Under the pieces are notes generated by a model. The model had not been told where the DNA came from. It saw only the letters and a list, made by a program, of their open reading frames with translations, and ran no database searches. 6,089 bases of DNA, taken from NCBI GenBank assembly GCA_001797815.1, contig MGQK01000089.1, positions 15,744 to 21,832 of the forward strand, given 5' to 3'. Numbering within the stretch: the stretch's first letter is position 1; each line of letters starts with the position of its first letter. Of the stretch, positions 3,079 through 6,089 are shown piece by piece. A program made the translations under genes and the position numbers. The DNA is from Deltaproteobacteria bacterium RBG_13_61_14. Lineage in GTDB: Bacteria > RBG-13-61-14.

Positions 3079-4848
3079 ATGGCCACTCTCGACTGGACCC
3101 TGATCTTCGCCTACTTCGCCTTTTCCCTGGCCGTCGGCCTCTTTTTCTCCCGCCGGGCCGGCAAGAGCGTGGCGGATTTCTTTGTTTCCGGCCGGGCCAT
3201 GCCCTGGTGGCTGGCCGGCACCTCCATGGTGGCCACCACTTTTTCCGCGGACACTCCGCTGGCCGTGACCGAGATGGTTTACCGGCACGGGGTGGCCGGC
3301 AACTGGCTGTGGTGGAACTTCGTGCTCTCCGGCATCCTTACCGTCTTCTTCTACGCCCGCCTCTGGCGCCGGGTGGGCGTGCTCACCGACATCGAGTTCA
3401 CCGAGCTGCGCTACGGCGGCCGACCGGCCGCGGCTCTCCGCGGCTTCCGCGCCCTCTACCTGGGCGTGATCATCAACTCGGTGATCATGGGCTGGGTGAT
3501 CTCGGCCATGGGCACCATCGTGGAAGTGTCCCTGGGCATTGACCGCTGGATCGCGGTCAGCGTCTGCCTCATCATCACCGTCCTCTACTCCGGGCTCTCC
3601 GGGCTCTGGGGCGTGGTGGTCACCGACTTCTTCCAGTTCGCCATCGCCATGACCGGCTCGATCCTGCTCGCCATCTTCGGCCTCCGCGAGGTCGGCGGCA
3701 TGGCCGGGCTCAAAGAGCGCCTGATCGAGCACGCCGGGTCCCCTGAAAAAGTTGACTCCTTCTTGTCCATGCTCCCCCCGGTCGGCTCCGCGGCCTGGCT
3801 GCCGCCCCTGCTCTTCTTCACCTACATCGGGATGCAGTGGTGGGCGTCCTGGTATCCGGGCGCGGAACCGGGCGGCGGGGGTTACGTGGCCCAGCGCATG
3901 TTCAGCGCCAAGGACGAGAAGCACTCGCTCTTGGCCACCCTGTGGTTCAACATCGCCCACTACGCGCTCCGGCCCTGGCCCTGGATCATCACCGCCCTGG
4001 TCGCCGTGGTGCTCTACCCGGACTTGAAAAGCCCGCGCGAAGGCTATGTCCTGATGATGACCCATCATCTCCCGCCTGGAATTCTGGGGCTGATGCTCGC
4101 CTCCCTGGCCGCGGCCTTCATGTCCACCATCTCCACCCATATCAACTGGGGTTGTTCCTACCTGGTCAAGGACTTTTACCAGCGGTTCCTCAAACCCGAC
4201 GCCCCCGAGGCCCACTACATCCGGGTCTCGCGGCTCTTTTCCGTGGTCTTGATGGTGGTGGGCGGCCTGGTCGGATACCTCATGCAGTCCCAGGTGGGCG
4301 GGTGGGAACTCTTGCTCACCATCGGTGCCGGCACCGGCCTGGTCTATATCCTGCGCTGGTTCTGGTGGCGGATCAACGCCTGGTCCGAAATCTCCGCCAT
4401 GCTCGCGGCCCTGGTCGGATCGCTGGGCCTCAAGGCCCTGCAAGCCCTGGGCTGGCTGACCCTGCCGCCCGAGACGGCCTTCGCCTATGAGCTGACCATC
4501 ACCGTGGCCTTTACCACCGCGGTCTGGCTGGCGGCAACCTTCCTGACCCGGCCCGAATCCGAGGCCGTGCTGGAGAAATTCTTCCGCCGGGCGCGGCCGG
4601 CCGGACCCGGCTGGGCTCCGGTGCGCAAACGACTGGGAAATTCCGTCCAAGTAACCGATAACCTCTTCTATTCGTTCCTGGACTGGATCGCCGGCTGCGC
4701 CTTGATCTATGCGGCCCTCTTCGGCATCGGCAAACTCATCCTCGGCCAAACCGCGCTCGGCCTGCTCCTCCTCCTCCTCGCCCTCCTCGCCGGCGGCTTC
4801 ATCTACTGGGATCTCCGCCGACGCGGTTTTCAGACCATCGGTGAATAG
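3079..4848 (+). CDS. Sodium:solute symporter, SSF family
   Basis: A 589-residue, highly hydrophobic inner-membrane protein of the SSF family (PutP/SGLT-like, TC 2.A.21), expected to import a solute with Na+. Family marks are TM1 (about 5-23) followed by the SVADFFVSGRAMPWWLAG segment (30-47), the unwound-helix region VATTFSADTPLAVTE (51-65), the SSF signature region around YSGLSGLWGVVVTDFFQF (170-187), and AAFMSTISTHINWG (345-358), whose Ser/Thr residues match the Na2 sodium site of TM8. About 14 membrane segments are visible, the last two near 534-551 and 556-576. The subgroup with ADTPL, NWLWWNF and GGGGYVAQRMFSAKDEKH is a widespread uncharacterised one, so sugar, amino acid or other organic solutes are all possible. 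ATG 3079 is preferred over an in-frame ATG at 2947, which would overlap the hydrolase gene by 127 bases and add an Arg/Pro-rich tail. The Shine-Dalgarno is weak (AGG at 3066-3068). Confidence 0.93.
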   Translation: MATLDWTLIFAYFAFSLAVGLFFSRRAGKSVADFFVSGRAMPWWLAGTSMVATTFSADTPLAVTEMVYRHGVAGNWLWWNFVLSGILTVFFYARLWRRVGVLTDIEFTELRYGGRPAAALRGFRALYLGVIINSVIMGWVISAMGTIVEVSLGIDRWIAVSVCLIITVLYSGLSGLWGVVVTDFFQFAIAMTGSILLAIFGLREVGGMAGLKERLIEHAGSPEKVDSFLSMLPPVGSAAWLPPLLFFTYIGMQWWASWYPGAEPGGGGYVAQRMFSAKDEKHSLLATLWFNIAHYALRPWPWIITALVAVVLYPDLKSPREGYVLMMTHHLPPGILGLMLASLAAAFMSTISTHINWGCSYLVKDFYQRFLKPDAPEAHYIRVSRLFSVVLMVVGGLVGYLMQSQVGGWELLLTIGAGTGLVYILRWFWWRINAWSEISAMLAALVGSLGLKALQALGWLTLPPETAFAYELTITVAFTTAVWLAATFLTRPESEAVLEKFFRRARPAGPGWAPVRKRLGNSVQVTDNLFYSFLDWIAGCALIYAALFGIGKLILGQTALGLLLLLLALLAGGFIYWDLRRRGFQTIGE

Positions 4849-4851
4849 AAC

Positions 4852-4907
4852 GTAGTCAGCCACCGGCGCGCCAGAGCGCTTTGGCGGCGGTGCGTAGTCG
4901 GTAGTCA
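4852..4907. repeat. GTAGTC words flanking a GC-rich hairpin after the symporter gene
   Basis: CGTAGTC occurs at 4851-4857 and 4893-4899, and GTAGTCA at 4852-4858 and 4901-4907; GTAGTCG (4894-4900) and GTAGTCA form two tandem heptamers. Between them is a bulged hairpin: CACCG (4861-4865) pairs with CGGTG (4888-4892), and CGCCA (4869-4873) with TGGCG (4882-4886), around an 8-base loop. The hairpin begins 12 bases after the symporter stop, so it could stabilise or end the transcript, but no T-run follows it. A classic intrinsic terminator is therefore not supported. Confidence 0.6.
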
Positions 4908-4926
4908 GGTTAAGAAAGAAAGCATC

Positions 4927-4953
4927 CACAGATTTCGCAGATTACACAGATTC
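4927..4953. repeat. Three tandem 9-base CACAGATTN words
   Basis: CACAGATTT (4927-4935), CGCAGATTA (4936-4944) and CACAGATTC (4945-4953) are head-to-tail 9-mers sharing C(A/G)CAGATT. From memory, CACAGATT-type words are scattered in intergenic DNA of many bacterial genomes. I cannot assign a function. Confidence 0.7.
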
Positions 4954-4998
4954 CTATTTCTTATCGTGAACGTATCCGAGTTCATGCCGCAATAAATC

Positions 4999-5069
4999 GG
5001 GGACACCATACTAATTTTAATGCCCGTCTTCGGGGATTGGGAGAAAATCCATCGCCTTCAGGCGAAGAC
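4999..5069. repeat. Possible remnant of a transposase-associated palindromic element
   Basis: GGGGACACCATACT (4999-5012) is a word I associate from memory with DNA flanking REP-associated (Y1/IS200-like) transposases; this is not checked. Next to it GTCTTCG (5026-5032) pairs perfectly with CGAAGAC (5063-5069), enclosing GGATT (5034-5038) with AATCC (5046-5050). A competing small hairpin is TCGCC-TTCA-GGCGA (5052-5065). No transposase gene is present in the window. Confidence 0.4.
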
Positions 5070-5116
5070 TTTAGGGAGATTGGGGGTCGAGGAATTGGGG
5101 GCAACGCTTCACATGC

Positions 5117-5151
5117 ATGAGCAGTAAGCAGTGCACGGTGCACAGTGGACA
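5117..5151. repeat. Heptamer array, GTGnnCA family, copy 1
   Basis: Five head-to-tail 7-mers: ATGAGCA, GTAAGCA, GTGCACG, GTGCACA, GTGGACA. The core CAGTGCACGGTGCACAGTG (5129-5147) is identical to 5461-5479. The two GTGCAC hexamers are each self-complementary. Confidence 0.75.
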
Positions 5152-5163
5152 GTCTTAGCGGAT

Positions 5164-5268
5164 GCGCGGCTGAGGCTTCGGCCGTGAGCTCCCTTCGGTC
5201 TGCCTTCGGCCGTGAGCTCAGGCCGAACGGAGACTCAGGGTCGAAGACCGCCGAACGGTCAGCCGCGC
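5164..5268. repeat. Large imperfect inverted repeat with internal 16-bp direct repeats
   Basis: GCGCGGCTGA (5164-5173) pairs perfectly with TCAGCCGCGC (5259-5268). After a 3x3 mismatch, TTCGGC (5177-5182) pairs with GCCGAA (5250-5255). Inside, the 16-mer CTTCGGCCGTGAGCTC occurs twice as a direct repeat, at 5176-5191 and 5204-5219, and the words TTCGG and CCGAA recur several times, allowing alternative folds. A structured RNA or a palindromic mobile-element relic are both possible. There is no T-run after it. Confidence 0.65.
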
Positions 5269-5380
5269 CCCTAAAGTCTTGCTGATAAAATCTGCATTGC
5301 AATCTGGCAACATCTTTTCTTTTTGAAAAATCTTTTTCACGGTGCCAGCCAACCCCCTCTAACTAAAAGAAGAATTATTT

Positions 5381-5409
5381 CACGTTCACGGAAAAGTTCA
5401 CGTTTACGG
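5381..5409. repeat. Direct repeat of CACGTTCACGG
   Basis: CACGTTCACGG (5381-5391) and CACGTTTACGG (5399-5409) differ at one base and are 7 bases apart. TTCACG also occurs at 5379-5384 and twice within the pair. Function unknown. Confidence 0.55.
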
Positions 5410-5448
5410 GTCTTTCATATTTACCTAGCCACCCTGACACTTTCCAAA

Positions 5449-5479
5449 GTGGACAGTGAACAGTGCACGGTGCACAGTG
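5449..5479. repeat. Heptamer array, GTGnnCA family, copy 2
   Basis: Four head-to-tail 7-mers plus a partial: GTGGACA, GTGAACA, GTGCACG, GTGCACA, GTG. The 26 bases 5454-5479 match 5122-5147 with two mismatches, of which the last 19 are identical. This is the same family as the array at 5117-5151. Confidence 0.75.
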
Positions 5480-5491
5480 ATTCAAATGGTT

Positions 5492-5554
5492 GACCGGCAG
5501 GAATGCCTGTCCCCCTCCAAGATTAAAACTAATCCGCGACCGTGGCGGTCGCGG
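5492..5554. repeat. Two adjacent REP-like hairpins
   Basis: First hairpin: GACCGGCA (5492-5499) and TGCCTGTC (5504-5511) pair with one mismatch around a GGAA loop, a GNRA-type tetraloop. Second: CCGCGACCG (5534-5542) and CGGTCGCGG (5546-5554) pair perfectly over 9 bp around TGG. Two strong hairpins 22 bases apart resemble paired REP elements of the kind mobilised by REP-associated tyrosine transposases. That link is inference. A short pyrimidine run (CCCCCTCC) follows the first hairpin. Confidence 0.6.
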
Positions 5555-5572
5555 CTACCTCTTGCTTTCCGC

Positions 5573-5607
5573 CAACTGTCAACCGCCAACCGCCAACGGC
5601 CAACCGG
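5573..5607. repeat. Heptamer array, CAACCGC family
   Basis: Five head-to-tail 7-mers: CAACTGT, CAACCGC, CAACCGC, CAACGGC, CAACCGG. All share CAAC at the start; two are identical. Function unknown. Confidence 0.8.
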
Positions 5608-5620
5608 CTTCAGCCTGGGG

Positions 5621-5683
5621 TGGTTGCCGTGCAGAATGGGGTGGTTGTTGTGCAAGATGGGGGGATTGGCGCGCAGGATGGGG
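5621..5683. repeat. Three tandem copies of a 21-bp G-rich unit
   Basis: The units at 5621-5641, 5642-5662 and 5663-5683 end in ATGGGG and share a T-T-G then GCA/G-GATGGGG pattern. Copies 1 and 2 match at 17 of 21 bases and copies 2 and 3 at 15 of 21. The unit length of 21 keeps every reading frame in phase, so each frame shows a 7-residue peptide repeat; this alone does not prove coding. Confidence 0.75.
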
Positions 5684-5699
5684 GGAAGTTTGAGGAGGG

Positions 5700-5727
5700 T
5701 ATATCGCATGTCGTATGTTGTATATCG
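5700..5727. repeat. Heptamer array, TATATCG family
   Basis: Four head-to-tail 7-mers: TATATCG, CATGTCG, TATGTTG, TATATCG, with the first and last identical. The ATG of the doubtful small frame at 5708 lies inside this array. Confidence 0.75.
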
Positions 5728-5905
5728 GGGGAAGAACTGGTGGAAAAGATTGAGGAAGCGAGAGAAACTGGAAGGAAAGGAAAAAATTGTTAAGCGGTGC
5801 TTGACAGGGATTGGAAATTTTGATCTGAAAAGCGGTATTGTTATGCTTGCTGAGCCAGGGGCCGTGGTGAAGAGGATCAAGAGAATGGCAGCAAAAAGCA
5901 TGTAA
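5708..5905 (+). CDS. Doubtful small basic protein
   Basis: An open frame of 65 residues from ATG 5708 to TAA 5903-5905, with a strong Shine-Dalgarno (GAGGAGGG, 5692-5699) 8 bases upstream. I do not recognise the product. It is rich in Lys/Arg (for example KNWWKRLRKREKLEGKEK near 9-26) with a slightly hydrophobic patch near 41-50 and a basic C-terminus (VKRIKRMAAKSM). Its first residues, MSYVVY, are encoded by a heptamer repeat array, and it lies in a repeat-filled AT-richer stretch, so it may be a chance frame whose purine-rich 5' leader merely resembles a ribosome binding site. If real, it is unrelated in composition to the upstream operon. Confidence 0.2.
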   Translation: MSYVVYRGKNWWKRLRKREKLEGKEKIVKRCLTGIGNFDLKSGIVMLAEPGAVVKRIKRMAAKSM

Positions 5906-6003
5906 AAACAACTGGTTACACAAAGGTAGTCGGTTCCTGGTTTTGGCCTCGCCAGATTCATTTCATCTCTCTATTATATGGAGAAATGTTGCAGTTTTTG
6001 AGG

Positions 6004-6077
6004 AATTTTAGATTTTAGATTTTTGATTTTGGATTGATAAACCGCTGTAAATCTGAAATCCCCAATCTAAAATTAAA
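6004..6077. repeat. Inverted pair of AT-rich heptamer arrays
   Basis: Left arm, four 7-mers from 6005: ATTTTAG, ATTTTAG, ATTTTTG, ATTTTGG. Right arm, four 7-mers from 6050: AATCTGA, AATCCCC, AATCTAA, AATTAAA. The outermost segments AATTTTAGATT (6004-6014) and AATCTAAAATT (6064-6074) are exact reverse complements over 11 bp, and the inner parts pair partially around a spacer containing ACCGCTG. It could fold as an AT-rich hairpin, but it is not a typical terminator. Confidence 0.7.
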
Positions 6078-6089
6078 CCAGGTTTCCCT

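Follow-up and report, generated by a model that had tools for sequence, protein, structure and literature searches.

Paired heptanucleotide arrays in a bacterial intergenic spacer and in other genomes, with a probable origin in slippage and copying between hairpin arms

Why do several dissimilar seven-base words, each repeated in tandem, lie together in one intergenic spacer? The question arises from a window of 6,089 bp, by which we mean the whole stretch of DNA analysed, in the draft assembly of Deltaproteobacteria bacterium RBG_13_61_14 (G000; 4.74 Mb in 132 contigs; window G000:C89:15744-21832). The plus strand of the window encodes an SRPBCC-like fragment, TrkH, TrkA, a metallo-beta-lactamase-fold protein and an SSF symporter (3079-4848, stop codon at 4848). 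The next gene past the symporter lies on the minus strand, encodes a small response-regulator-like protein and ends at window-equivalent position 6194, and the heptamer region is the ~1.35-kb spacer flanked by these two convergent genes. A run of 17 N, representing a scaffold gap, directly follows window position 6089 (L051 near 1833-1849). No known RNA family was matched at the window by Rfam at the gathering threshold.

An earlier note on this DNA had listed five heptamer families in the spacer and suggested a common generating process, and the repetition is real: the period-7 sum score of positions 4849-6089 was 72, compared to a mean of 1.1 and a maximum of 16 in 500 first-order Markov shuffles, and besides 7 only period 14 (2 × 7) attained its own null maximum. 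Both TRF and the period-7 score recovered, all on the plus strand, two AGTGNNC arrays in the same orientation (CAGTGNN units with variable NN; 5120-5153 and 5448-5480), a CCAACNG array of ~5.4 units (5569-5607) and a 31-bp array of the form (ATTTTNG)4ATT (6005-6035). By TRF alone, the first AGTGNNC array spans 5129-5153 and the CCAACNG array 5569-5606. The two AGTGNNC arrays are separated by a GC-rich palindromic sequence (5164-5270) that is not a heptamer array, and the DNA fold of 5155-5290 was more stable than that of every shuffle (z = -4.05). TRF further detected 3.2 plus-strand copies of a 21-bp (3 × 7) tandem unit, TGGGGTGGTTGNNGNGCAGNA (5616-5683), whose core TGGGGTGGTTG gave 29 matches in 1.11 Mb of G000 and none for the reversed control. 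This unit is a dispersed tandem repeat family, seen in the window, at L036 near 12240 and at L039 near 7200 and 11300; both in the window and at L039:7196 it comes right after a CCAACNG array and the words CGGCTTCAGCC. The plus-strand TATNTCG array (5699-5727) is weak, with a TRF score of 30 and a value under the period-7 score threshold, and its family word TATNTCGTATNTCG had 10 matches versus 0 for the reversed pattern (1.11 Mb of G000). GTAGTCR occurs on the plus strand as two adjacent full units only (4894-4907, within an array of 4893-4920 including flank) and as lone copies at 5926 and at 4852-4858 (GTAGTCA), the latter a few bases past the symporter stop codon; since GTAGNCN arrays recur elsewhere in G000 (16 matches versus 1 for the reversed control in 1.11 Mb), it is nevertheless a genuine family. 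A degenerate period-9 array, CACAGATTTCGCAGATTACACAGATT, was also observed at 4927-4952, its word pattern matching 3 times versus 0 for the reversed pattern (1.11 Mb).

The main feature that had been overlooked is an inverted-pair architecture. ATTTTAG/AATCTAA (6005-6077), previously taken as one array, consists of two arms around a loop of ~14 bp: the (ATTTTNG)4ATT array forms the left arm, and a degenerate reverse complement, AATCTGAAATCCCCAATCTAAAAT... (6050-6077, minus strand), which was the top inverted match to 6005-6035 in the spacer, forms the right arm (predicted RNA fold of 6000-6082, z = -3.1). The GTAGTCR array (4893-4920) is likewise the left arm of an inverted repeat, with its partner at window-equivalent 6110-6137 (L051:1853-1880), past the 17-N gap; 26 of 28 bases are identical, and the match score was 24 compared to a shuffled maximum of 14. 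Because the window stops at the scaffold gap, this partner was not visible when the families were first listed. The outer GTAGTCR pair spans the spacer of the convergent genes, with the remaining arrays inside its loop.

Genome statistics were obtained from 0.8-1.11 Mb of the 4.74 Mb, largely contigs carrying AGTG or ATTTTNG matches. Within 800 kb, TRF found 74 period-7 arrays compared to 2 in a local second-order Markov control, with 7 being the commonest tandem period, and a second detector found 80 compared to 0. Period 7 is therefore in excess well beyond the spacer, and its words are not unique to it but recur at dozens of loci: AGTGNNC (AGTGNNCAGTGNNCAGTG) had 44 matches in the whole G000 genome versus 0 for the reversed pattern, and the words found include ATTTTNG, CAGTGNN, GGTTCNN, CGTATNN, TAGGCNT, GTAGNCR, CCAACNG and CTTCANN among others. 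Neither outcome named as refuting in the earlier note, a lack of excess at 7 or words confined to this locus, was observed. An inverted partner within 120 bp was present for 45 of 117 arrays in G000 (1.11 Mb; 7.7 in the scrambled-unit control), compared to a direct partner for 3; the corresponding values for Oscillochloris were 91 of 132 arrays, 20 and 5. Of 53 intergenic arrays, 24 had a length of 30-32 bp, where the distribution peaked; this corresponds to four units and three further bases. Density in the analysed sequence was ~105 arrays per Mb, from which several hundred arrays are estimated for the whole genome, an extrapolation from contigs partly picked for arrays. Arrays are mainly intergenic, with 10 of 93 elements lying within called genes while the coding fraction is 0.83. 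The crowding itself, which the earlier note had considered remarkable, was rejected as a signal: spacers with at least two families numbered 11, compared to 10.3 expected from length, and those with at least three numbered 2, compared to 2.0, so that the number of families in the window spacer matches length-proportional placement.

The paired ATTTTNG pattern was found in at least 112 stretches of GTDB genomes, a count made without a control pattern, and the phyla among the matches listed include Acidobacteria, Nitrospira, Chloroflexi, Cyanobacteria, Bacteroidota, Planctomycetes, Omnitrophota and a few others; the presence of such arrays in so many phyla gives no support to heptamers as a specific mark of cyanobacteria. 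In a domain-wide sample, 2 of 290 genomes (G000 and G202; control, 0) carried the pair and both genomes of the same order as G000 lacked it, which indicates a very patchy distribution. Six species of the genus of G202 had 4, 0, 5, 2, 33 and 53 paired matches, and viral contigs gave 2 matches compared to 0 for the control. A special status of AGTGNNC as a word across families was rejected (16 of 290 genomes, and 13 of 290 with the reversed pattern as control); the word itself is ordinary, arrays built from many different words being common. The 73 matches of G065 to the reversed control GACNNGTGACNNGTGACNNGTGA come from another genome rich in heptamers, in this case GTGACNN.

In several phyla, paired elements with arms often of ~31 bp lie directly 3' of stop codons. 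Among 68 classified paired ATTTTNG elements (named GTDB loci and G000), 45 were in tandem, 16 in convergent and 7 in divergent spacers, mostly 0-40 bp past the upstream stop, with genes called by our own ORF scoring instead of a trained gene finder. The median distance to the stop codon was 2 bp in Oscillochloris, and the stop-side preference was modest in G000. Intrinsic terminators are defined by a GC-rich hairpin followed by a U tract, with transcript ends mapped to the site; the ATTTTNG arms correspond to AT-rich hairpins at gene ends. Several elements folded well (z from -3.1 to -7.1), and one, L097, folded no better than shuffles (z = -1.3). Arms were more similar within one element (0.43) than across different elements (0.33), with no covariation register by register: the match matrix, aligned from the innermost junction, was flat, and an exact hairpin kept by compensatory changes was rejected on this basis. 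(Comparing outer units instead yields an inverse register effect, which is an artefact.) Arms that are alike without matching in register fit slippage and copying better than selection on base pairs.

How such arrays change was followed in two Oscillochloris genomes, G292 and G293, which, judging from matching coordinates and sequence, probably correspond to the records CAIRFY and CAIXLU. At ~88% identity and with gaps of at least 3 bp scored, gap lengths that are multiples of 7 accounted for 6 of 11 gaps touching arrays versus 3 of 34 elsewhere, and orthologous arrays differed mainly by 7, 14 or 21 bp, the whole-unit copy-number variation among relatives for which the earlier note had proposed a test. 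Adjacent units changed together, as in GATTACA × 3 versus GATTTTA × 3 and GATTGTG × 2 versus GATTTTA × 2; this block-wise replacement, together with the predominance of period 7, the recurrence of the words and the 7-, 14- and 21-bp differences, supports the idea of one generating process behind many words. In the L266/L323 pair the left arm has become (GATTGTG)n while the right arm is still (CCAAAAT)n, and at the gene ends L321 and L322 an ATTTTGG hairpin in one species faces an AAAATGC array in the other, the two words being one base apart. Between L258 and L240, arms and flanks are nearly identical and the loop is inverted (shuffle P < 0.0005 with the arm-end bases, P = 0.0175 for a shorter cut); a weaker loop inversion was detected between L259 and L237 (shuffle P = 0.0135). 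The loop of L244/L313 also appears inverted by eye (10/11), although the sequence of this loop is close to a palindrome. In L264/C298 the loop is kept and the right arm differs by 21 bp, and some orthologous gene ends carry no array or another palindrome. Two Flavobacterium orthologue pairs (80 and 88% flank identity) had identical arms around loops of unrelated sequence and differing length (10 vs 31 nt and 18 vs 22 nt), and loop inversion was not significant in either pair. Misassembled repeats are possible in draft metagenomes, and the whole-gene alignments flanking the scored arrays argue against them.

Several further repeats were observed in the same two Oscillochloris genomes. At L310 (G293:C382 region), an array has grown to ~30 units in which GATTTTG and GATTGCG are mixed, with few units in the sister species. 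The non-heptamer hairpin CTCCCTGAG...CTCAGGGAG (L269 near 14658, and L246) shows matching changes in both arms and is a candidate for a further template-switch footprint. A MITE-like element, GAAAATAGCC...GGCCATTTTC (L264:8208-8310 in G293), contains an internal (GATAGCC)n expansion, appears to have an empty site, marked by the short duplication TAACG, at G292:C96 near 6860, and has many related copies in G292. A high-copy non-heptamer palindrome with the core GTCACGCTGAGCGAAGCGAAGCGTC was found at L268:15311-15408 and at ~40 places in G292.

Repeats of several known kinds resemble these arrays. Narrow-sense cyanobacterial STRRs are carried by filamentous cyanobacteria and comprise the words STRR1-3. 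Heptamers are a favoured longer SSR in bacteria, with slippage as a possible cause and mixed words per genome (PMC4679880, PMC4692102), and long SSRs with 7-nt units were described by Mrazek et al. (2007), as summarised in the same two papers. The present arrays share with STRRs and long SSRs tandem heptamers, an intergenic location, several words per genome and the favoured length of 7; they differ in being mostly short and degenerate, in often forming inverted pairs at gene 3' ends, and, in Oscillochloris, in orthologous sites whose loops had flipped or whose words had been replaced. Heptamers that lie between genes, mix constant with variable positions and vary in copy number among related species are also represented by the GGGNATC repeats of Xanthomonas and Nostoc (PMC4692102), which in Xanthomonas include some convergent inverted sets, and by the TAACTGA repeats of Beggiatoaceae (PMC4679880). 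These differ from the present arrays in having one dominant word per genome, for which G-quadruplex or translation control has been proposed, and TAACTGA precedes start codons (PMC4679880), whereas the present paired elements come after stop codons. We regard the arrays as a variant of heptanucleotide repeats and not as a new system: heptamer SSRs are known, and the paired, loop-flipping, word-swapping behaviour is what is new.

Taken together, these comparisons favour, with a probability of roughly 0.6, a process in which 7-nt slippage is combined with copying from one hairpin arm to the other, its products being tolerated, and perhaps selected, at the 3' ends of genes. A short seed word would grow into a tandem array by replication slippage, preferentially in steps of 7 nt in these lineages. 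Where an inverted copy lies nearby, the polymerase would switch template between the hairpin arms, copying units from arm to arm, keeping the arms alike and flipping the loop. Mutant units would spread through an array and its word would thereby drift (GATTTTA, GATTACA, GATTGTG and GATTGCA; AAAATCC and AAAATGC), leaving many word families of one period in a genome. Hairpins would persist mainly past stop codons, a place where they do no harm and may assist in ending or protecting transcripts, and the window spacer would be a pile-up of such quasi-palindromic heptanucleotide arrays. Arm homogenisation and spacer inversion are documented marks of template switching (PMC8604942), which can also create hairpins (PMC8794818). 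Slippage and template switching as the cause of the array changes are inferred from the orthologous comparisons, and the dynamics seen in Oscillochloris may, by analogy, extend to the RBG_13_61_14 lineage. Counting against this reading, 5 of the 11 in-array gaps were not multiples of 7, and the scored events amount to just 11 gaps and two loop inversions; loops could also be flipped by recombination of the inverted arms, and slippage and copying do not by themselves account for the preference for 7.

The location behind stop codons reflects either tolerance or function, and the conservation of the Flavobacterium arms appears to favour some function. One alternative accordingly treats the heptamers as raw material for 3'-end elements that are selected as terminators, mRNA 3' stabilisers or insulators of convergent genes. 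That elements lie very close to stop codons and occupy convergent spacers, that several fold well, and that a sister species may hold a hairpin of another word at the same gene end (L321, L322) are all in line with this explanation, and the identity of the Flavobacterium arms despite their unrelated loops suggests that selection acts on the arms in addition to any mutational process. Position-by-position covariation of the arms is nevertheless absent, L097 folds no better than shuffles, at many orthologous gene ends the element is missing or a different repeat takes its place, the stop-side preference is modest in G000, and any harmless insertion would be best tolerated past stop codons as well; we thus consider selected function as the primary explanation possible but rather doubtful. 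An equally tentative extension of slippage and copying would join the two: a class of stop-codon-anchored hairpins in several phyla, in which the slot is conserved and the word exchangeable, with 7-nt slippage and template switching rebuilding functional transcript ends.

Mobility and protein binding account for less of what was observed. Miniature elements of REPIN or MITE type, mobilised by a RAYT or another transposase acting in trans, would likewise be dispersed and extragenic inverted pairs around a variable loop; REPINs are inverted, hairpin-forming doublets (PMC3116915), G000 has 19 Y1-transposase (PF01797) matches, and one Oscillochloris element, carrying (GATAGCC)n, has the apparent empty site and short duplication in its sister species. 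REPIN arms, however, all reproduce a single sequence almost exactly and require a RAYT (PMC3116915), while copies of the present elements within one genome vary in word, arm units and loop, the arms comprise many words instead of one conserved sequence, and changes at orthologous sites are mostly internal and seldom whole-element gains or losses. G292 (94% completeness) had no PF01797 match yet carries 33 paired ATTTTNG matches, on which grounds RAYT-driven mobility was rejected; G291 likewise had no PF01797 match. We hold mobility in general to be improbable. The PF01797 matches in G000 lie in many cases in open frames of ~320 aa (C34:26497, C21:24133, C90:27216 and C27:10572, for example), and G001 and G002 had 5 and 6 matches, respectively. 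Less probable still is the reading in which one or several DNA- or RNA-binding proteins recognise 7-nt units and have their sites in the arrays, as proposed for Geobacter metallireducens, in which paired heptamer/octamer "global regulator" sites and GGGACCG elements were suggested to bind IHF/HU-type proteins (PMC2700814). The likeness is considerable, with four to five tandem 7-8-mers per site, opposite-strand pairs at variable distance and species-specific abundance there (PMC2700814), and here opposite-strand tandem pairs at variable distance, inverted arms of ~31 bp and units mixing fixed and free positions (GATTTTN, CAGTGNN, GATTNNN). Each Geobacter class has one word (PMC2700814), whereas the present arrays have dozens of interchangeable words, which would require many proteins per genome, and these words vary both inside an orthologous site and from one such site to the next, a change that a binding site would not be expected to tolerate. 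The orthologous comparison thus points to a mutational process, unlike the binding-site reading for Geobacter.

To our knowledge, the heptamer excess of bacteria has been noted for decades with no mechanism given. The footprints described here, namely 7-bp steps, block-wise unit replacement, arm homogenisation and loop inversion, are readable in pairs of related genomes, and slippage and template switching would thereby become measurable genome-wide. Should the 3'-end hairpins be important for transcript ends, this would be an example of regulatory structures built by a mutational bias.
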